Part shown: positions 33,362-43,528 of the stretch, one piece after another
Position numbering within the stretch: the stretch's first letter is position 1
Layout of the letters: every line of letters begins with the position of its first letter
Assembly (NCBI GenBank): GCA_000526255.1
Contig: JAFS01000001.1
Coordinates: 620,001 to 684,000 of the forward strand
DNA: 64,000 nucleotides
From: Verrucomicrobia bacterium LP2A
Lineage (GTDB): Bacteria; Verrucomicrobiota; Verrucomicrobiia; Methylacidiphilales; Methylacidiphilaceae
Direction of reading: 5' to 3'
Position numbers and translations under genes: made by a program
Notes under the pieces: generated by a model
The model's input: only the letters and a program-made list of their open reading frames with translations
Told to the model about the DNA's origin: nothing
The model's database searches: none

Positions 33362-33449
33362 GGACAGGTGGCAGAGCGGTTGAATGCGGCGGTCTTGAAA
33401 ACCGCTAGCCCGCAAGGGCTCGTGGGTTCGAATCCCACCCTGTCCGCCA
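33362..33449 (+). tRNA. tRNA-Ser(UGA)
   Basis: Acceptor arms GGACAGG and CCTGTCC pair, and CCA is encoded at 33447-33449. The anticodon loop CTTGAAA carries TGA for serine, the long variable arm (TAGCCCGCAAGGGCTC) is as expected for tRNA-Ser, and the T arm is GTGGGTTCGAATCCCAC. The island recombinase gene runs into it from the opposite strand. Confidence 0.96.
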
Positions 33450-35038
33450 CCTCAGTCCCTGTATGGGCACTGCGTTTACGCCACCATTCGCCACGAGCGC
33501 CTGAAGCAGCCGGGACTTCGATCCCATGATACGGACCTCGCCTTCGGCGACCTCGACCCGCTGTGCGAGAGCGCGAAGGTGGTCGCGACGATAGCCGCCG
33601 CCTTCGAGCCGGATGCGCTGGCGCGCGGCGCGGGCGAACTTGCTCAACATCTGCGGCGTGACCGCCTTGCTCCCTGAGTTCTGGAGCATGGCCTGGGCGC
33701 GCTCCGCGTCGGCCTTCGTCTGGTCGCGGATGGCCTTGAGGCCATCGATGCGGTCCTTGAGAGCCGAATCGCCGATATCGGCCACTCCGGCTTCGATAGC
33801 GTCGTAGAGGCGCTTGAGCCGGGCTTCCGATTCCGCCGAACGCCTATTCAACTCGGCAATATGCTCGCGCTGGCGCTCGGATCGCTCCTGCCGCCGGTCG
33901 AGCACCGTGGCGAGGATAGCTTCCAGCCGCTCGGGCTGAAGCAAGCGTTCTTCCAGATGGCTGGCGACAAGATCATCCAGCTTGTCCATCGGCACGGCCA
34001 TGCCTTCGCAAGCGGTCGGCCCCTGCCGGGCCTTGGTCGAACAGGCGTAGTAGCGATAGCGCCCGCCCTTGCCGGTGCGGATGGTCATGGCCCCGCCGCA
34101 CTTGGCGCAATGGATCAGGCCGGTGAGCATCGTCGGACCACTGATGACGGCGGATGGCGTCACCGTGGGATGGCGGGCCTTGAGCAGCGCCTGCACCGCG
34201 TCGAAGGTCTCGCGGTCGACGATCGGCGGGACGGGCACGACCACCACCTCGCTGACTGGCTTCAACTCCTTGGACTTCGACCGCTTGTTGAACTCATGCT
34301 CACCGACATAGGTGCGGCGGGTCAGGATGCGGTGGACTTGGCCGATGCCCCAGCGCCCACCATCGCGGGTGAAGATGCCGTTGCGGTTCAGATAGCTGAC
34401 GATGTTCTTCACGCCCATCTGGCCCTTGGCACCGTCGCCGTGGAGCGCAAGCCGGTAGATCAGCCGCACCGTCTCGCCGTGGAGCGGGTCTATCTCCAGC
34501 TTCTTCTTGACCTTCGCGCCGCGCTGCTCGGCCGCGACGACACGGTAGCCGATGGGCGGCAGCGAACCATTCCAGAAGCCTTGCCGTGCATTCTCCTTCA
34601 AAGCCCGCATGACGTGCTTGGCGTTCTCCTTGGATTGGTACTCGTCGAACAGCGCCATGATCTGCCGCATCATCTGATGCACCGGATCGTCGCCGATCTC
34701 CTGGGTGATCGACAGCAGCTTGACGCCGTTCTTCGCCAACTTGCGGACGTAGAACTCCATATCGAAGGCATCGCGGAAAAAGCGGCTGAACGAGTGGACA
34801 ACCACCACGTCGAACGGCGCGGGCTTGGACGTGCCCGCCTCGATCATCCGCTGGAATTCGGGGCGGCGGTCGTTGGTCGCCGACGCGCCTGGCTCCACAT
34901 AGGTTTCGACGAGCTGGTAGCCGCGCGAAGCGCAGTAGGCTTCGCCCTGGTGCTTCTGGTCGGGATGGAGACATCGTGCTCGGCCTGCCGCGCCGTCGAG
35001 ACGCGCAAGTAAAGGGCGGCGCGCAGCGGCACGGTCAT
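33405..35038 (-). pseudogene. Large serine recombinase with a frameshift
   Basis: The N-terminal resolvase domain starts MTVPLRAALYLRVSTARQ with the catalytic serine in RVST, but the frame breaks after HDVSIP. One missing base near 34971-34974 moves the continuation (DQKHQGEAYCASRGYQL) into the next frame, which then stays open through the resolvase core (SRFFRDAF), the recombinase domain and the zinc-ribbon (CAKCGGAMTIRTG...C) to a coiled-coil tail. Without the break it would be about 540 residues. The last 14 codons (WRTGWDSNPRALAG) are antisense to tRNA-Ser, so the original 3' end seems to have been replaced at integration. The break may be decay or a base-call error. Confidence 0.85.
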
Positions 35039-35372: not shown

Positions 35373-35732
35373 TCATCGTTCCCCTTTCCGGCCCGTTCTC
35401 GGCGACACTGCCAGGCCGAGGAACACCATCAAGGCCTGGTTGAGCCGGACCACATCCTCGTCGTCCAGCCGGCCGACCCGCTCGCCGACCTTGGACTTTG
35501 GGACGGTAGTGATCTTGTCCACCATAAGCCGGGAGACGGCACGCAGCCCGTTGCGCTCGTTCGGTTCGACTGGCAGCCGGAACAGGGGCACTTCGGTCGG
35601 GTCCGTGGTGAAGGCGCAGATCGTGATGGAGTCGGTTGCGTCGAAGGCGTCGTCCTGGACGATGACGACAGGGCGTAGCTTGCCCGCATAGTCCTTGCCG
35701 CCGGAGACGGTCCAAATCTCTCCGCGCTTCAT
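35373..35732 (-). CDS. MazF/PemK-type toxin (type II toxin-antitoxin)
   Basis: A 119-residue endoribonuclease of the PemK/MazF fold: KRGEIWTVSGG at the start, the KLRPVVIVQDDAF strand, ITICAFTTDP, and LMVDKITTVPKSKVGERVGRL, with the usual C-terminal helix. Such toxins cut mRNA when their antitoxin is degraded. The start overlaps the antitoxin stop by four bases, the normal antitoxin-first order. Confidence 0.9.
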   Translation of the reverse strand: MKRGEIWTVSGGKDYAGKLRPVVIVQDDAFDATDSITICAFTTDPTEVPLFRLPVEPNERNGLRAVSRLMVDKITTVPKSKVGERVGRLDDEDVVRLNQALMVFLGLAVSPRTGRKGER

Positions 35733-35953
35733 TCATCGTCCCAGTTGGACACTGCGTCGATGAACGCCTGATCCTCGGCCGCATGGGTGCTCGCCGCCAC
35801 GGCCGCCGATTGGCGGTGCGCCTCCGCCCGGAAGGACGACGCGCGCACGTCCGGCACCCAAATCTGGATTGGCCGCAGGCCCTGGGCGCGCAGCCGGTCG
35901 CGGTGCTCCTGCACCTTCATCTTGGTAGGCTTCGCGCCTCTCGCCTGGGCCAT
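35729..35953 (-). CDS. MazE-like antitoxin (DUF3018)
   Basis: The 74-residue protein fits DUF3018: MKVQEHRDRLRAQGLRPIQIWVPDVRA followed by the ARAEAHRQSAAVAAS-like helix and an acidic C-terminus (AFIDAVSNWDDE) that would wrap the toxin. The ATG at 35953 is the first codon of the homologous part; the frame is open upstream but crosses the operator palindrome. Upstream lies a perfect palindrome, a likely autoregulatory site. Confidence 0.85.
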   Translation of the reverse strand: MAQARGAKPTKMKVQEHRDRLRAQGLRPIQIWVPDVRASSFRAEAHRQSAAVAASTHAAEDQAFIDAVSNWDDE

Positions 35954-35985: not shown

Positions 35986-36093
35986 TATCATGCGGCGCTC
36001 GGCATGGAAAGCGGATTCGATCCGGCAGCTCGACTATCGCCGACTGAGAAATGTGTAAAAAGTTGTTGTTACGCAATATGTTGACGGCACAGC

Positions 36094-36176
36094 GCACATT
36101 GCGCCCCAAGACCGCACATTGCCGGATCGGCGAAAAACCGAAGCAAAATCAATCGACCGACCGAGCCGCAATGTGC
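36094..36176. repeat. Three copies of a GCACATTGC nonamer
   Basis: GCACATTGC occurs directly at 36094-36102 and 36114-36122 and inverted (GCAATGTGC) at 36168-36176, all in the divergent space between the antitoxin and the R-M operon. The second and third copies form a longer inverted pair, CCGCACATTGC and GCAATGTGCGG. A protein-binding or recombination site is possible. Confidence 0.5.
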
Positions 36177-36184
36177 GGCCTTTT
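36165..36184 (+). terminator. Small hairpin followed by a T-run
   Basis: GCCGCA and TGCGGC pair around a three-base loop and are followed by CTTTTA. It resembles a weak intrinsic terminator reading toward the R-M operon, and overlaps the inverted nonamer. Confidence 0.35.
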
Positions 36185-36255
36185 ATCTGGCCCTCTGAGT
36201 GGCTCCGCCCCCAGGCTCCTCCCCCGTCCATCGCCACTTCATGGTACGCTTTTCT

Positions 36256-36284
36256 TTGGACTGTCCCGTCGCCGGCACTACAAT
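36256..36284 (+). promoter_or_regulatory. Sigma-70 type promoter of the R-M operon
   Basis: TTGGAC (36256-36261) and TACAAT (36279-36284) are separated by exactly 17 bases, and each differs from consensus at only one or two positions. Transcription would start near 36291, about 33 bases before the first gene. Confidence 0.65.
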
Positions 36285-36285
36285 G

Positions 36286-36298
36286 CACCTACCTGGTG
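36286..36298. promoter_or_regulatory. Inverted repeat at the transcription start, candidate operator
   Basis: CACC-TACCT-GGTG lies immediately after the -10 box, covering the expected start point. A repressor bound here would block the R-M operon; the ribbon-helix-helix protein encoded next is the obvious candidate. This is inferred from position only. Confidence 0.4.
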
Positions 36299-36323
36299 TA
36301 AAGTGATGATTCAGGAGGTAGCT

Positions 36324-36530
36324 ATGGCGGTAAATGAGGAGGTGGGCGTCGAACCAGGCGGCCGGAGCGTCCGCACGTCCGTCACCCTGCCGCGCGAGCT
36401 TTACGAAACGCTTGGGCAAATCGCCAAGAACGGCAAGGTCACGGTTGCATGGGTCATCCGCGATGCTGCCGAAAACTACGTGGCCGAGAAGTGGCCTTTG
36501 TTAGCTAAAGGGAAGGCCACGCGAGGATGA
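36324..36530 (+). CDS. Ribbon-helix-helix (CopG-like) protein, possible regulator of the R-M operon
   Basis: A 68-residue protein with an RHH core: RTSVTLPRELYETLGQIAKNGKVTVAWVIRDAAENYV, a beta strand followed by two helices, as in Arc/CopG repressors. The start ATG has the ribosome binding site AGGAGGTAG. Its stop overlaps the start of the endonuclease gene (ATGA), so the two are translated together. In place of the usual HTH C-protein it may time expression of the endonuclease. Confidence 0.8.
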   Translation: MAVNEEVGVEPGGRSVRTSVTLPRELYETLGQIAKNGKVTVAWVIRDAAENYVAEKWPLLAKGKATRG

Positions 36531-37198
36531 CGCGAATTGACCTAACGATAGACCTGCTGTGCAGCGAGGCGCAGACTTTCTCTGACATCGAAAGCAAGCA
36601 TAGCGAGCCTGCCTTGTTCGGTGTGACAGACGGCAAAGCTGTCGGCACCTACTTGGAGCACAAATTTAGGCTGTACCTGAAAGAACGCTACGAGTTCGCG
36701 GAAGGCAATTCGGCGAACGGCGTTGATTTTCCGGGGTTGAGCGTGGACATGAAAGTGACCAGCATTCGCCAGCCTCAATCATCGTGTCCCTTCAAGTCGG
36801 CGCGTCAAAAAATCTTCGGCCTGGGCTATGGCCTCATTGTGTTCGTGTACGACAAAGCCGACGATCCCGACAGCAAGACCGCCATTTTGCGCATGACCAA
36901 CACGGTGTTTGTCGAGCCGCAGCGCACGGCTGACTATCAGATGACACGCGGCCTGCGGAACATCCTGGCAAATGACGGCAACGCCGAAGACCTGATGGCC
37001 TTTATGATGGAAAAGAACCTGCCGGTTGATGACATCGAGCTAAAGAACTTGGCCGATGAACTCATGACCAACAAGCCGGAGCAGGGCTATTTGACGATTT
37101 CAAACGCCTTGCAATGGCGGCTTCAATACGGCCGGGTCATCGAAAAGGCCGGAACCGAGTCCGGGATTCGTTCAATTTACAAGAGCGCCCCGCTATGA
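36527..37198 (+). CDS. Restriction endonuclease, PD-(D/E)xK type
   Basis: A 223-residue protein placed directly before an adenine methyltransferase. Residues G65-V66-D67 and V73-D74-M75-K76 give the D...DxK arrangement of PD-(D/E)xK nucleases, with E44 in the preceding helix (GTYLEHKFRLYL) as a further candidate active-site residue. It overlaps both neighbours by four bases. The recognition site cannot be inferred. Function rests on the motif and on the operon context. Confidence 0.8.
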   Translation: MTRIDLTIDLLCSEAQTFSDIESKHSEPALFGVTDGKAVGTYLEHKFRLYLKERYEFAEGNSANGVDFPGLSVDMKVTSIRQPQSSCPFKSARQKIFGLGYGLIVFVYDKADDPDSKTAILRMTNTVFVEPQRTADYQMTRGLRNILANDGNAEDLMAFMMEKNLPVDDIELKNLADELMTNKPEQGYLTISNALQWRLQYGRVIEKAGTESGIRSIYKSAPL

Positions 37199-38721
37199 GC
37201 GTTGAACGTAAACAGCGCATCGAATTTGGCGACTTTCAAACGCCCGACGATCTGGCGCGCGAAATCTGCGCACAGCTAAAGGGCTTCGGCCTCAACCCCG
37301 ACACCATCATTGAACCGACTTGCGGCGTGGGGTCATTCCTGGTCGCGGCGGCTGACACCTTCACGCAGGCGAAGGCCGTCTATGGCTTCGAAGTGAACCG
37401 CTCCTATCTTGAACAGGTGGAAAAGCGCGTTAGCGGGCGAGCTGACCGGCAACGTATCCAGCTAGAGGCGGCCGACTTCTTCAAAATGGACTGGCGCGCG
37501 CGCGTCGATGCGCTGCCCGGCCATGTGTTGGTGATCGGCAATTTCCCCTGGGTCACGAACGCGGTTCAAGGGTCTATCGGCGGCGTCAACATGCCGAAAA
37601 AATCCAACTTCCTTGGGCACAACGGCTTCGACGCGATCAGCGGCAAAGCCAATTTTGACATTTCGGAATGGATGCTTTTAGACGTGCTGCGCTGGCTGCG
37701 GGGTCGCTCGGCCGATGTGGCAATGCTCGTCAAAACCGCCGTCGCCCGGAAGGTCTTGGCTCATGCCGAACGTATGGGGGAGGGCGTCCAGGATTCCTTC
37801 CTGATGAGCATTGACGCGAAAAAGCATTTCGGCGCGGCCGTGGATGCGTGCCTGCTGGTGATGCGGCTCGACCCGAACGGCGCGCGCTGCTCGGATTACA
37901 CGGTCTATGAAACGCTGCACGCCAAGAAGGGCAAACGTGTCGGCCATCGCCACGGCATGACGGTCGGCGACCTGGATACCTTCGAGTCCTTCTCGTTCCT
38001 GCTGGGCAGCAGCCCGCAAAAATGGCGCTCTGGCGTCAAGCATGATGCGTCATCGGTGATGGAGTTCACCCGCACAAGCGGCGGCTATGTGAACGGGGCC
38101 GGTGAGGTCGTGCAACTAGAAGAACAATACCTATTCCCACTCCTGAAAGGCTCCGACATAGGCAGCGCGAAGGCATGGCGGGAAAAGTTCGTCTTGGTGA
38201 CGCAGCGCGCAGTTGGCGAGGCGACACACAAAATCCAAGATCAAGCCCCCCGGACGTGGCGTTACCTGACGGCGCACGCAGAACAGTTGGATGCGCGCGG
38301 CAGCACCATCTATGAGAAAAACCCGCGCTTCTCGATTTTTGGCGTCGGGGACTACGCTTTCCGCCCGTGGCGTATCGCTATCTGCGGCCTTTACAAAGCC
38401 CTGCGGTTTCGGCTCGTCGGCCCGATAGAGGGTCGTCCCGTCATGTTCGATGATACAGTTTATTATCTCTCGTTTGAGAGCGAGCGCGACGCCACGGAAA
38501 CGTTTGATCATCTGCATTCCGAAGCGGCAACGGGCTTCCTGTCCTCACTCGTGTTCTGGGATGAAAAACGCCCCATCAAAACCAGCATCCTCAACGCCTT
38601 GGACTGGTCAAAGCTTAACGAGCAGGACGGGGAGCAAGGGCAGCTCACGCTGAACATCGCAGCGCGCAATACATGGTCGCACGAACGCCGTCCTGCGGCT
38701 CGATTGGCGCAGCGACGATAA
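37195..38721 (+). CDS. N6-adenine DNA methyltransferase of the R-M operon
   Basis: The 508-residue protein has the class I MTase motifs: FQTP at the N-terminus (motif X-like, F14-P17), motif I EPTCGVGSF (40-48), and a motif IV variant GNFPW near residue 116 instead of the common NPPY/F. A long target-recognition region follows. It would protect host DNA from the adjacent endonuclease. The frame is intact to its stop. The GNFPW form is unusual but known among adenine methylases that use an N-x-P-aromatic motif. Confidence 0.85.
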   Translation: MSVERKQRIEFGDFQTPDDLAREICAQLKGFGLNPDTIIEPTCGVGSFLVAAADTFTQAKAVYGFEVNRSYLEQVEKRVSGRADRQRIQLEAADFFKMDWRARVDALPGHVLVIGNFPWVTNAVQGSIGGVNMPKKSNFLGHNGFDAISGKANFDISEWMLLDVLRWLRGRSADVAMLVKTAVARKVLAHAERMGEGVQDSFLMSIDAKKHFGAAVDACLLVMRLDPNGARCSDYTVYETLHAKKGKRVGHRHGMTVGDLDTFESFSFLLGSSPQKWRSGVKHDASSVMEFTRTSGGYVNGAGEVVQLEEQYLFPLLKGSDIGSAKAWREKFVLVTQRAVGEATHKIQDQAPRTWRYLTAHAEQLDARGSTIYEKNPRFSIFGVGDYAFRPWRIAICGLYKALRFRLVGPIEGRPVMFDDTVYYLSFESERDATETFDHLHSEAATGFLSSLVFWDEKRPIKTSILNALDWSKLNEQDGEQGQLTLNIAARNTWSHERRPAARLAQRR

Positions 38722-38855
38722 CGGTTTCCCATCAGGCCGAGGCTTTGTCGGCCAGTTGGGCGGCCTGACCAGATCGCAAAATTGAGCTTGCTAGAGGGTT
38801 GCCAACAGTTGACTAATCAATAGACATAACTCACGTTGCATGGCATTATTTTCCC

Positions 38856-39416
38856 ATGAAGCTGAGCGTCTGGGCAAGGCGGCAGGGGATTGGCTCCAAG
38901 ACGGCTTGGCGGATGGGGAAGGACGGGAAGATGCCGGTGCCGGTCGAGCAGTTGCCGACCGGGACGGTGATCGTGCATGCGGAGGAGAGGCAGCCCGGCG
39001 GTGTTGCCCTCTATACGCGCGTCTCCAGCGCCGACCAGAAGACGGATCTGGACAGGCAGTTGGCGCGGCTGACGGAGTGGGCGCTCGCCAAGCGGTTGCC
39101 GATCGTCGATGCGGTCAGGGAGGTCGGCTCTGGGATGAACGGCCAGCGCAAGGGGCTCTTGCGGCTCTTGCGCGATCCGAAGGTCGGCGTCATTCTGGTC
39201 GAGCATCGGGACCGGCTGATGCGCTTTGGATTCGAGCATGTGGAGGCGGCCTTGGCTGCGCATGGCAGATCCCTGCTGGTTGTCGATCCCGAGGAGATGA
39301 CCGACGACATCGTCCGCGATCTGCACGAGGTCATCGAGTCGATGTGCGCGAGGCTCTATGGCAAGCGGTCCTCCAGGAACCGGGCGAGGAAGGTGCTGGA
39401 GGCTCTTCATGAGTGA
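38856..39416 (+). CDS. tnpA: IS607-family serine transposase TnpA
   Basis: A 186-residue recombinase with a MerR-like helix-turn-helix at the N-terminus (LSVWARRQGIGSKTAWRMGKDGKMP, abbreviated) and a small resolvase domain with the catalytic serine in ALYTRVSSADQ. GSGMNGQRKGLLRLL and VEHRDRLMRFGF follow as in other IS607 transposases. The stop lies eight bases inside tnpB. It appears intact. Confidence 0.92.
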   Translation: MKLSVWARRQGIGSKTAWRMGKDGKMPVPVEQLPTGTVIVHAEERQPGGVALYTRVSSADQKTDLDRQLARLTEWALAKRLPIVDAVREVGSGMNGQRKGLLRLLRDPKVGVILVEHRDRLMRFGFEHVEAALAAHGRSLLVVDPEEMTDDIVRDLHEVIESMCARLYGKRSSRNRARKVLEALHE

Positions 39417-41037
39417 CCCTGCGCTCTTCACCTACCAGACGCGCTTGAGGCTGACGGAGGGGCAGGTCGCGGCTCTGGACGCCTATGCGGATCTCTACGG
39501 GCAAGCCGAGCGGGCACTCTTTGCCAGGATGCGAGTGGGGATTCCGATGGGCGATCTCAAGTGCGAGTTCCTGAGGCGCTTCGGGATCACCGCCCGGCAG
39601 TTCAACGCGATTCGCGTGGGCCTCGAGGGCAAGATCGCCTCGATCCGGGAGCGGCTTCCGGAGTTGATCGCCGAGGCCGAGTCCCGCATCCAGAGAGCCG
39701 AAAGGGTCATCGGCATCCTCTCGGCGAGGGAGCCAGGCTCGGAGAAGCTGCACCAGAAGAAGCGGCGGCTTGGAAGCCTTCGCGCCAGGCTCGCGGCCCT
39801 CATCACCGACCGGGACTCGGGGCGCGTCCGCCTCTGCTTCGGCTCCCGCCGCCTTTTCCGCAAGCAGTTTGCCCTGGAGGAGAACGGCTACGCCAGCCAT
39901 GAGGAGTGGAAAGAGGAGTGGCAGGCGGCGCGGAGCGGCCAGTTCTTCGTGATCGGCTCGAAGGACGAGACCGCGGGCAACCAGTCCTGCCGGGCTTCGG
40001 TCGAGGAAGACCGCAGCCTGACCCTACGTCTGCGTCTTCCCGATGCGCTGGCCTCGGATGGCAAGCTTCTGGTCATTCCCGCCGTGCGATTCGCCTATGG
40101 CCAGGAGGAGATCCTTCAGGCGCTCGCCGCGAGCCGGGTTGTCTTCTCGCAAACCAAGACGGGCAAGCCTGTCCGGAAGCGGGAGGGAGTGGCTGTGAGC
40201 TACCGCTTTTTAAGGGACCGGAAGGGCTGGCGGGTCTTCGCGAGCGTCCTGGCCAAGCCCGTTCCCATTGCGACGAGCCGCCTGGCGGGAGCGCTTGGGA
40301 TCGACATCAACCACGACCATCTGGCCGTGGCGGAGACGGACCGGTTCGGCAACCTGCGGCGGGCCCTTCGGGTGGATCTCAACCTCTATGGCAAGACGGA
40401 AGATCAAGCCCAGGCGATCATCGGCGACGCGGCGAGGATGATTGTGGAGATGGCACGGGAGCGTGGTCTTCCCCTGGTCCTTGAGCGGCTGGATCTCAAG
40501 AAAAGGAGGGCTGAGCTTGAGGTGGCGAGTCCATCCGCCGCCAGGAAGATCTCGTCGTTTTGCTACTGCAAGACCATTTCCCTGCTCAAGGCGGCCTGTT
40601 TTCGAGCCGGAGTCGAGGGGATCGAAGTCGATCCGGCCTATACTTCCGTGATTGGCGCGGTGAACCACGCGCGTCATCACGGTGTGAGCTCTCACCAAGG
40701 CGCGGCCCATGCCGTGGCCAGGAGAGGCTTGGGCCTCTCCGAGCGTCCGACCGTGCGGGAGGCCGTCGCGCCGGCCCGCAATGGCGGCCACCTCACCTTT
40801 GCCCTACCCGCGAGGAATCGGGCGAAGCATGTGTGGTCGTTCTGGTCGGAGGTTCGGAGGAGGCTCAAAGCGGCGCATGCAGCGCATGCCCGGTCGGGAG
40901 GCTTGCGAGAGCCGCCCGCGCCTTTGCTCCCGGAAACGCGGGCATTGAGCGCAACCTGGGCATTGCCGGCGGAATCCCGGCACGCGAACCGTCGGCAGAA
41001 CTGTTCGGCCGACGTCATCGACGACCTTCCCTGGTAG
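39409..41037 (+). CDS. tnpB: IS607-associated TnpB, variant with altered RuvC/zinc-finger region
   Basis: A 542-residue TnpB-like RNA-guided nuclease relative, longer than the common 400 residues. RuvC-I is GIDINHDHLAVAE (D299) and RuvC-II is LVLERLD (E359). The segment that normally has the CxxC...CxxC zinc finger and the third aspartate reads VDPAYTSVIGAVNHARHHG then SSHQGAAHAVARRG: no cysteine pairs, and histidine where the aspartate of the DxNAA-like motif is expected. The start ATG at 39409 overlaps tnpA and lacks the 17 further upstream codons, which are inside tnpA. The C-terminal 60 residues are poorly conserved in composition. Whether it still cuts DNA is uncertain. Confidence 0.85.
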   Translation: MSDPALFTYQTRLRLTEGQVAALDAYADLYGQAERALFARMRVGIPMGDLKCEFLRRFGITARQFNAIRVGLEGKIASIRERLPELIAEAESRIQRAERVIGILSAREPGSEKLHQKKRRLGSLRARLAALITDRDSGRVRLCFGSRRLFRKQFALEENGYASHEEWKEEWQAARSGQFFVIGSKDETAGNQSCRASVEEDRSLTLRLRLPDALASDGKLLVIPAVRFAYGQEEILQALAASRVVFSQTKTGKPVRKREGVAVSYRFLRDRKGWRVFASVLAKPVPIATSRLAGALGIDINHDHLAVAETDRFGNLRRALRVDLNLYGKTEDQAQAIIGDAARMIVEMARERGLPLVLERLDLKKRRAELEVASPSAARKISSFCYCKTISLLKAACFRAGVEGIEVDPAYTSVIGAVNHARHHGVSSHQGAAHAVARRGLGLSERPTVREAVAPARNGGHLTFALPARNRAKHVWSFWSEVRRRLKAAHAAHARSGGLREPPAPLLPETRALSATWALPAESRHANRRQNCSADVIDDLPW

Positions 41038-41102
41038 GGGAATGTTTGTCTATGGTTTTAGGAACGGCTATGGCGAAAACGTAGTGATCATCGCTATCGG
41101 GC

Positions 41103-41608: not shown

Positions 41609-41728
41609 ATGATCGAAAAGGCTCGAAAGACACTTATCGAAGCTGCGCTGCAGTGGGAAGCGATCAACGCAATATCTCCGCTCGGGTGCGAAGCCAAAGA
41701 GACCATACCGGGGCGCCGAGTTACATGA
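41609..41728 (+). pseudogene. First truncated start of a DUF1156-type methylase gene
   Basis: The frame MIEKARKTLIEAALQWEAINAIS resembles the N-terminus of DUF1156 proteins (pattern KxLIEVALPLEAIN). Homology ends after about 25 residues and the frame stops at 41726-41728, overlapping the start of the ATPase gene. A short match, so this is moderately supported; a second copy of the same kind lies downstream of the pair of intact genes. Confidence 0.5.
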
Positions 41729-42942
41729 AACCGCCATTTATACAACGGGTGACCATCCGCAACTACAAGAGCATAGCGGCTTGCAGGCTCGATCTCCAGA
41801 AGTTGACTTTCATGGTGGGACCGAACGGCGCAGGAAAAAGTAACTTTCTCGACGCGCTCAAGTTCGTGTCTGACGCCCTGCGGAGCTCGCTCGACCATGC
41901 CCTGCGTGATCGTGGCACGATCAGCGAGGTAAGACGACGTTCCGGAGGCCATCCCAATCATTTCGTTCTGCGTCTCGATTTCATTCTCCCGAATGGCCAG
42001 GTCGGACACTACGCGTTCAGGGTGGGAGCAAAGCCCGCGGGGGCCTACGTCGTTCAGGATGAGGAGTGCGAGATCCACCCAGAGGAAGGTTTCGGACAAA
42101 GTGAGTATTTCCGCGTCAAATCGGGAGTCGTGGTCGAGAAGACGGTTTCTCCGATGCCCGCGGCGCTGCCCGACCGTCTGCTCCTCGTCGCCGCATCGGG
42201 CCTACGAGCCTTCCGGCCCGTCTATGACGCGCTCTCGCGGATTGAGGTCTACAACCTCAACCCGCGCGAAATCGCGAACATGCAGAAACCCGACCCGGGC
42301 GAGATCCTCCGGCGGGATGGAAGCAACGCCGCGAGCGTGCTGCAACGGATGCCCGATCACGTCCGAGCCATGATCCGGGAAGATCTTGCGCGGATCGTCC
42401 CAGGCGTTTCCGACGTGGAAGCTCGCACTCTGGCTTCACAGGAGACGGTCGAGTTCCGTCAGGCGGTCAAGGGGCAGGCGCATCCGTGGCGCTTCTTCGC
42501 ATCCGCTATGTCGGATGGGACGCTCCGGGCGTTCGGCATTCTGTTGGCCGTGTTTCAAGCTGCCTCGGAGCAGGCCAGCGGGCGGCCACCCCTGTTAATT
42601 GGCCTGGAAGAGCCCGAGATGGCGCTTCATCCGGCCGCAGCGGGCGTCCTCCTCTCGGCGTTACGCAAGGGCGCTGAGCACTGCCAGGTCATCGTTACGA
42701 GTCACAGCCCCGACCTGCTCGACAATCCCGACATCGAGCCCGAATCCCTTATGGCTGTCGATAATCCCGGGGGCCTGACGCGGATCGGCAAGATCGACGG
42801 GCTCGGGCGGGAGATGTTACGCAAGCAGCTCTTCACGGCCGGCGAGCTGCTGCGCCAGAATCAGATTGCCCCGGACCCGGAATCTGTGGCCGAAGTCAGC
42901 GACGAACATCAGCTCGATCTCTTTGACTTCAGGGGAGCGTGA
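41725..42942 (+). CDS. AAA ATPase of the RecF/OLD-like ABC type, putative defence protein
   Basis: The 405-residue ATPase starts IQRVTIRNYKSIAACRLDL and has Walker A GPNGAGKSN (32-40), the signature-like SDGTLRAFGILLAVF, a Walker B LLIGLEEPEMALHP and the H-loop region VIVTSHSPDLLDNP. This order is typical of AAA_21/AAA15 ATPases that work with nuclease partners. The next gene, 4 bases on, encodes a DUF4276 protein with a Toprim-like fold; the pair resembles the split OLD/PARIS logic in which an ATPase controls a Toprim effector. It is intact although its neighbours are degraded. A role in phage defence is inferred from context. Confidence 0.85.
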   Translation: MKPPFIQRVTIRNYKSIAACRLDLQKLTFMVGPNGAGKSNFLDALKFVSDALRSSLDHALRDRGTISEVRRRSGGHPNHFVLRLDFILPNGQVGHYAFRVGAKPAGAYVVQDEECEIHPEEGFGQSEYFRVKSGVVVEKTVSPMPAALPDRLLLVAASGLRAFRPVYDALSRIEVYNLNPREIANMQKPDPGEILRRDGSNAASVLQRMPDHVRAMIREDLARIVPGVSDVEARTLASQETVEFRQAVKGQAHPWRFFASAMSDGTLRAFGILLAVFQAASEQASGRPPLLIGLEEPEMALHPAAAGVLLSALRKGAEHCQVIVTSHSPDLLDNPDIEPESLMAVDNPGGLTRIGKIDGLGREMLRKQLFTAGELLRQNQIAPDPESVAEVSDEHQLDLFDFRGA

Positions 42943-42946
42943 GTCA

Positions 42947-43528
42947 ATGGCGTTCCTTGCGTCGATCGGAGAGGGGCAGGGAGAGGTTGAGGCTCTCCCA
43001 GCGCTTCTATACCGCCTGGCGCGCCTGCTCGAGTTGCCCGCACTGAGCGTTACCCCGCCCATCCGGGTGAAGTCTGGTTCCTTCCTCAACCATGAATCGT
43101 ATTTCAGAAGACATATTGAGCTCGCGGCCAGCAAGGCGATTGCCTACGGAGGAGCCGTATCGATTCTGCTTGATTGCGACGACGATTGCCCAGCCAAGCT
43201 CGGGCCTAGGCTACTGGCGCAGGCGCGCGCAGTTCGCAGCGATGCTAAATTCTTTGTTTCCCTCGCCTATCGTGAGCTTGAAACGTGGTTCATCGCCGCG
43301 GCAGAGTCGCTTCGCGGACAGTTTGGGCTGCCTGCGGATCTGACGCGTCCGGCGAATTTCGAGTCGATTCGGAATGCAAAAGGCTGGCTCGGCGAGCGTA
43401 TGCCGGATGGCTACGACCCGGTGAGGCATCAACACCTCATGGCAAAAGAGATGGATATCGGTCAGGCGCTGACCGCCAGATCGTTCCACCGTTTGGCGCA
43501 GCATCTTCCACTCATCCTCCAGGCCTGA
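42947..43528 (+). CDS. DUF4276 family protein (Toprim-like), partner of the ATPase
   Basis: The 193-residue product begins MAFLASIGEGQGEVEALPALLYRL, the typical start of DUF4276 (EGxGE near the N-terminus), and contains LLDCDDDCPAKLGP, an acidic DxD-type cluster as in Toprim domains. The conserved glutamate plus aspartates would bind metal. ELETWFIAAAESL and FESIRNAKGWL are further family blocks. The gene follows the ATPase by 4 bases. DUF4276 proteins are known from phage-resistance neighbourhoods; the biochemical activity here is inferred. Confidence 0.85.
   Translation: MAFLASIGEGQGEVEALPALLYRLARLLELPALSVTPPIRVKSGSFLNHESYFRRHIELAASKAIAYGGAVSILLDCDDDCPAKLGPRLLAQARAVRSDAKFFVSLAYRELETWFIAAAESLRGQFGLPADLTRPANFESIRNAKGWLGERMPDGYDPVRHQHLMAKEMDIGQALTARSFHRLAQHLPLILQA

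Follow-up and report, generated by a model that had tools for sequence, protein, structure and literature searches.

The analysis presented here suggests that three genes in Verrucomicrobia bacterium LP2A form a type II restriction-modification (R-M) operon that is probably controlled by a swappable ribbon-helix-helix (RHH) autorepressor cassette, which would give a burst of expression on entry into a cell and low expression thereafter. The operon lies at 36324-38721 of the window, by which we mean the whole 64,000-nucleotide stretch of DNA that was analysed, and its genes run in the same direction, with the RHH gene first, the endonuclease gene second and the methyltransferase gene last. Comparison with related sequences demonstrates the gene identities, their coupling, the conservation of the operator, the recurrence of the RHH leader before other R-M systems and the separate histories of the two modules.

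The RHH gene (36324-36530, + strand) encodes a CopG/RHH_1-type protein of 68 amino acids, identified by Pfam and by a 12-sequence family alignment. It matches Pfam RHH_1 at 3e-8 (33.7 bits against a cut-off of 20.5) and RHH_5 also above the cut-off, and in the family profile searches all its matches are RHH families and none is a helix-turn-helix (HTH) family. A monomer model built from six sequences (pLDDT 70.7) has the two helices in register and the strand unformed without its partner. RHH dimers bind their half-sites through a two-stranded sheet, as in CopG, Arc and MetJ, and the 12-sequence alignment shows no variation at the strand residues R17 and S19, which by comparison with known RHH proteins should face the DNA. 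The second gene (36527-37198, + strand; 223 amino acids) encodes a type II endonuclease that matches NCBIfam NF052465 with 350 bits against a cut-off of 290, and also a PADLOC type II endonuclease model. Its catalytic residues, D67...D74-x-K76, are all three invariant in the alignment of relatives. Comparison of an AlphaFold model built from ten family members (pLDDT 79.8) with the PDB places PD-(D/E)xK endonucleases at the top, NlaIV first at Z 8.2, then 3ndh (7.4), HincII, SwaI and MvaI (6.9) and MutH (6.6), with EcoRV also among the matches; the Foldseek E-values for this model are weak, and PDB sequence searches returned no meaningful match for either the endonuclease or the methyltransferase. 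In the predicted structure, the conserved catalytic residues sit in the right fold for a PD-(D/E)xK enzyme. The third gene (37195-38721, + strand; 508 amino acids) encodes an adenine-type DNA methyltransferase with NFPW as motif IV, assigned by alignment and by PADLOC MTase_II (3.5e-202), the N6_Mtase match being weak. This cognate methyltransferase adjoins the endonuclease, and the homologous pair is present in relatives. The earlier note had read the operon as an RHH protein, a PD-(D/E)xK endonuclease and an adenine methylase coupled by ATGA overlaps; the family matches agree with this, and ATGA overlaps are found at both the RHH/endonuclease and the endonuclease/methyltransferase junctions. 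The RHH gene has a strong Shine-Dalgarno sequence, AGGAGG at 36313-36318 (+ strand, by sequence reading), and because the methyltransferase start has no clear one, its translation probably depends on coupling to the endonuclease gene.

Upstream of these genes, a sigma-70-type promoter is predicted as TTGGAC-17-TACAAT (-35 box at 36256-36261, -10 box at 36279-36284, + strand), a match that by itself is not above chance. The 17-base spacing described earlier stands, but the promoter is neither very good nor near-consensus: it matches 8 of 12 consensus positions in this register and 9 of 12 at best, as TGGACT-16-TACAAT, and a scan of 5 kb yields two such sites where 1.0 +/- 1.0 are expected, so that we regard it as ordinary. 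The operator core, the inverted repeat TGCACC-N5-GGTGTA at 36284-36300 (+ strand), takes in the last base of the -10 box and extends over the predicted start point, and is longer than the CACC-N5-GGTG originally reported there. The exact repeat is unique in the 2.47-Mb genome (about 0.3 copies expected) and reaches p about 0.007 in shuffles. On its own it is weak evidence, and its significance comes from conservation, the repeat recurring upstream of related RHH genes. Its right-hand half-site also begins a direct-repeat pair, GGTGTA-N4-GATGAT (36295-36310, + strand), for which the family consensus is GRTGYA-N4-GRTGYA; the third half-site, GATGAT at 36305-36310, one turn downstream, is degenerate, with two mismatches (p about 0.03). 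A possible fourth half-site, AGTGCC on the - strand at 36274-36279, mirrors the right-hand one and is likewise degenerate, with two mismatches, and weak. All half-sites recognised in the promoter region of the window fall within 36274-36310, at and after the -10 box. Control of other host genes through this operator was considered and rejected: there is one exact copy only, and the remaining single-mismatch matches are at about chance level.

Autorepression by occlusion is the simplest reading of this arrangement, because the half-sites lie about one helical turn apart over the -10 end and the start point. We infer that the RHH dimer binds the GRTGYA half-sites there, that bound protein represses rather than activates and so would limit transcription of the three-gene, translationally coupled message, and that entry into a repressor-free cell, where the promoter would be free, may set off a burst of RHH protein, endonuclease and methylase; as the RHH protein accumulated, transcription would fall to a low maintenance level. 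Several points count against this. The promoter positions are uncertain, the third half-site of the window is degenerate, the more distant RHH members do not share the operator, and a simple burst would not yield methylase first in an operon whose endonuclease gene precedes the methylase gene. It is also conceivable, though unlikely in our view, that the RHH protein is a dual regulator like the C-proteins, giving delayed activation of the endonuclease promoter and repression at high level, for it takes the place that the C gene holds in C-R operons, and in some relatives of the endonuclease (L003) a small gene of HTH type stands in that place. C operators reach upstream of the -35 box for activation. 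In the window the half-sites run from the -10 box downstream, and none could be recognised in the part of the promoter region upstream of the -35 box, where an activator would sit, which argues against activation of the C-protein kind. C-proteins are both activators and repressors, but the RHH regulators omega and PaaR act only as repressors (PMC3874152).

Conservation of the operator bears further on the autorepressor reading. Upstream of most of the plasmid RHH genes that we located, GCACC-N5-GGTGYA-N4-GGTGYA is present despite differing flanks. We derived the operator consensus from RHH loci that BLAST had returned and then tested it on 13 loci identified by their protein only: in 8 of these 13, GRTGYA-N4-GRTGYA occurs with no or one mismatch within 100 bases of the start (Fisher combined p about 2e-11 against dinucleotide shuffles, a value that relatedness among the loci makes optimistic). 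The five test loci without it belong to the lower-scoring, more distant clade, and among strong-clade test loci (at least 66 bits, including the added loci L097 and L098) all eight have the operator with at most one mismatch, while distant RHH members have no GRTGYA operator or have other arrangements. The family operator is thus GRTGYA-N4-GRTGYA, often preceded by GCACC-N5; in the window the inverted repeat is exact and the second direct half-site carries its two mismatches. This degenerate half-site, together with the presence of the operon in only one of seven genomes of the genus, could be taken as a sign of decay, with the RHH gene and its operator left as remnants beside inactive R-M genes. 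We think this very improbable, as all three genes are intact and keep the residues invariant in their families, and the exact ATGA couplings and the perfect inverted repeat have been kept. Scanning viral contigs for the three-half-site pattern gave 32 matches, of which only one (L055) was recognised as an RHH-headed R-M operon; the others look like chance or unrelated repeats. The exact pattern was absent from 398 Pseudomonadota genomes, for which it is too strict, the protein profile finding 11 matches in the same genomes. The best -10 box lies just left of the operator in the window and inside the operator in other loci; a general rule that the -10 box lies inside the operator has modest support only (combined p about 4e-5, relatedness ignored) and is untrue of the window.

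The recurrence of the RHH leader is the second line of evidence. A search of plasmid proteins with the window RHH protein gave matches in Xanthomonas, Methylomonas, Ancylobacter, Neorhizobium, Mesorhizobium, Rhizobium and others, and in all nine annotated plasmid loci that were opened, a DNA methyltransferase or R-M operon lies directly downstream. These plasmid operons comprise an Eco57I-like methyltransferase with a BsuBI/PstI endonuclease, a C5 methyltransferase with an endonuclease, an Eco57I-type methyltransferase with an IIG-like protein, and a beta-class methyltransferase with a large N6 methyltransferase. Profile searches covered viral contigs and two genome samples that share few genomes, namely the 398 Pseudomonadota genomes and 385 genomes of the class of genome G420; a phage collection gave no match to the RHH protein. 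The loci found by profile include C5 with an EcoO109I-like gene, two N6/N4 methyltransferases, two D12 methyltransferases, a TaqI-type methyltransferase with a XhoI endonuclease, C5 with Vsr and a PD-(D/E)xK protein, C5 with a NotI-like gene, and a DrmD-Schlafen-Type III Mod-Res operon, while more distant members head Type I HsdM/HsdS, SIR2-HerA, BREX (BrxB-BrxC-PglX) and Ssp (SspC-SspD) operons. By these sequence comparisons, taken over plasmids, viral contigs and chromosomes, the R-M types that the clade and its near relatives directly head number at least ten and are unrelated to one another. The junction between the RHH gene and the downstream R-M gene is mostly an ATGA overlap in these relatives as well. 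The clade is defined by the signature RxSxS...VSVAWV[IV]R...PLL, which the window protein fits as RTSVT...VTVAWVIRDA...PLL, and the closest relatives of the window protein are the RHH proteins of C5 and PstI-type operons (51-54%). Weak profile matches L078 and L079 and the alpha loci L099 and L100 have no recognised defence gene adjacent, and these four set a limit to the clade.

RHH proteins such as CopG and ParG are common on plasmids and many of our matches are plasmid-borne, and a plasmid copy-control or partition gene could in principle come to stand beside R-M genes by chance through mosaic recombination. This is highly improbable given the neighbourhoods: a defence operon follows the RHH gene in 15 of 19 profile matches of the genome surveys, whereas no R-M gene resembling the ones found here follows any of the 28 generic RHH_1 genes taken from 60 genomes (p about 5e-9, optimistic because of relatedness among the loci). 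The conserved operator directly upstream of the RHH gene also speaks against it. About a dozen of the 28 control genes, by eye, precede ParE/RelE-like toxin genes. In toxin-antitoxin operons the toxin gene comes after the RHH antitoxin, as in these controls, and by analogy the RHH protein might bind and restrain the endonuclease protein itself. We give this little credence, for the genes that follow this same clade are not homologous to one another (C5, N6, beta and D12 methylases and an ATPase), and the partner is mostly a methylase and not a nuclease while the C-terminal tail of the RHH protein stays PLL. In the window, the genes after the RHH gene are an endonuclease and a methyltransferase and not the small toxin of a toxin-antitoxin module. 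The autorepressor reading is favoured over both, and the RHH protein seems to be a regulator that can be exchanged between DNA-cutting defence systems, because the same protein and operator head many unrelated restriction operons. Some of the loci are unusual in their own right. At L085 (1297-9199) and L087, an RHH leader, a DrmD-like helicase, a Schlafen AlbA_2 protein and Type III Mod and Res form one mixed defence operon. At L097 (879-4998) and L098 (2291-6434), an RHH gene with the same operator precedes an SMC-like ATPase of 905-930 amino acids with a weak Ppl match, followed by a Schlafen AlbA_2 protein, possibly an undescribed defence pair.

The RHH gene with its operator would thus be an interchangeable cassette, its clade heading many unrelated R-M systems, and the endonuclease-methylase family of the window usually travels without it. 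Relatives of this pair occur in cyanobacteria, Acidithiobacillus, Planctomycetes and others, with 60-81% identity in the endonuclease and the endonuclease first. The NF052465 endonuclease and methyltransferase of loci L001, L002, L013 and L014 are the same pair in the same order within this range of identity, and the relatives that were read differ from the window in having no RHH gene or operator. An RHH gene of the window family is absent at all 12 genome and 2 plasmid relative loci read, and the nearest relatives (74-81% in the endonuclease) have neither the RHH gene nor the operator. Because the closest relatives of the pair lack the RHH gene, the controller cassette and the R-M pair must have been combined separately. 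By the same comparison, the methylase-last order came with the pair, being that of its RHH-less relatives, and was not selected along with the controller, and the argument that this order calls for a tight controller does not hold. As to the same gene order elsewhere, RHH-headed R-M operons do recur, but among those read the endonuclease precedes the methylase in the window only, the methylase standing directly after the RHH gene in the other RHH-headed type II operons read. In a cyanobacterium (L003, 4769-4984), a small gene of HTH type, judged by eye, lies directly before the same endonuclease family, so the same R-M pair occurs there with a classical C-like gene. On an Aeromonas plasmid (L013, 882-4825), a pair of this endonuclease-methylase family is accompanied by qnrS2.

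For HTH C-proteins and for methylase autorepression, the control of an R-M system as it enters a new host is textbook knowledge. The window RHH resembles the C-proteins of PvuII, AhdI and Esp1396I in being a small DNA-binding protein that heads R-M genes with an operator over the promoter; it differs in its fold and in an operator placed as for repression only, and its clade heads many system types, usually with the methylase next. The half-site of omega is a heptad. Compared with omega and PaaR, the window has R-M enzymes under regulation and a GRTGYA half-site in place of the heptad. Omega (epsilon-zeta) and PaaR (paaA-parE) are RHH repressors encoded first in three-gene toxin-antitoxin operons, and the window is like them in having RHH first, repeated half-sites over its own promoter, and then a toxic enzyme and its antidote (PMC3874152). 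Reg_p576 is an RHH repressor of the establishment genes of pLS20 clade II conjugative plasmids, which are transiently expressed after transfer (PMC8708921); in its described logic it is like the proposed cassette, an RHH repressor of mobile-element genes with transient expression on entry, but it serves the establishment genes of another conjugative-plasmid group and is not an R-M controller. The WYL-domain regulators CapW and BrxR are one family found on many defence systems including R-M (PMC9122588), and they combine a winged HTH with a ligand-binding WYL domain, whereas the window protein is a bare 68-residue RHH that carries no sensor domain. None of the PADLOC models matches the window RHH, PMC3346939 mentions RHH only for the ParG protein, and no RHH controller of an R-M system was found in the open literature, subscription papers and REBASE lying outside this search. 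By the open literature, RHH is a type of DNA-binding protein not known to control bacterial R-M systems, and the earlier proposal of an RHH controller with its operator before an R-M operon, unlike the HTH C-proteins, gains support from the recurrence and the conserved operator. Such a family, whose conserved operator can be read from the sequence, would be a further solution to entry control across many restriction types, and its signature and GRTGYA operator offer a handle by which the regulation of many R-M systems on plasmids could be predicted. The window operon makes it testable whether repressor-only control is sufficient with the nuclease gene ahead of the methylase gene. We put at about even chances the broader proposal that these RHH genes, scattered as they are, belong to a single family that leads defence operons, an autorepressor with its operator that can be transferred as a cassette and has been placed before BREX, Ssp and SIR2-HerA systems as well as R-M Types I, II and III. 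If true, the cassette would be a way in which DNA-modifying defence generally meets the problem of cost and entry, parallel to HTH C-proteins and WYL regulators.

The genomic context is consistent with a mobile island, for which control at the time of entry is important. No counterpart of the operon was found in six other genomes of the genus. Upstream, a large serine recombinase gene (33362-35012) ends inside a tRNA-Ser gene (33362-33449), at which genus-level homology on the left stops, and a recombinase-related segment (84%) is present elsewhere in the same genome; the tRNA-Ser/recombinase site is likely the integration site of the island. A MazE/MazF-like toxin-antitoxin pair at 35373-35953 is 81% identical in DNA to an Acidibrevibacterium plasmid. 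The 124 bases at 36072-36195 hold a repeated GCACATTGC and the near-palindrome GCCGCAATGTGCGGC, and their identity is 83% to sequence that lies near conjugation-type genes on Bradyrhizobium plasmids; by this similarity, the stretch appears to be a plasmid-derived site. Downstream of the operon, 38797-41068 is an insertion element of the IS607/OrfB type with many copies in the genome and genus. Beyond it, at 41653-43528, an AAA_21/AAA_15 ATPase gene (AbiEii/OLD-like) is followed by an overlapping second gene, and the two are possibly a defence system.
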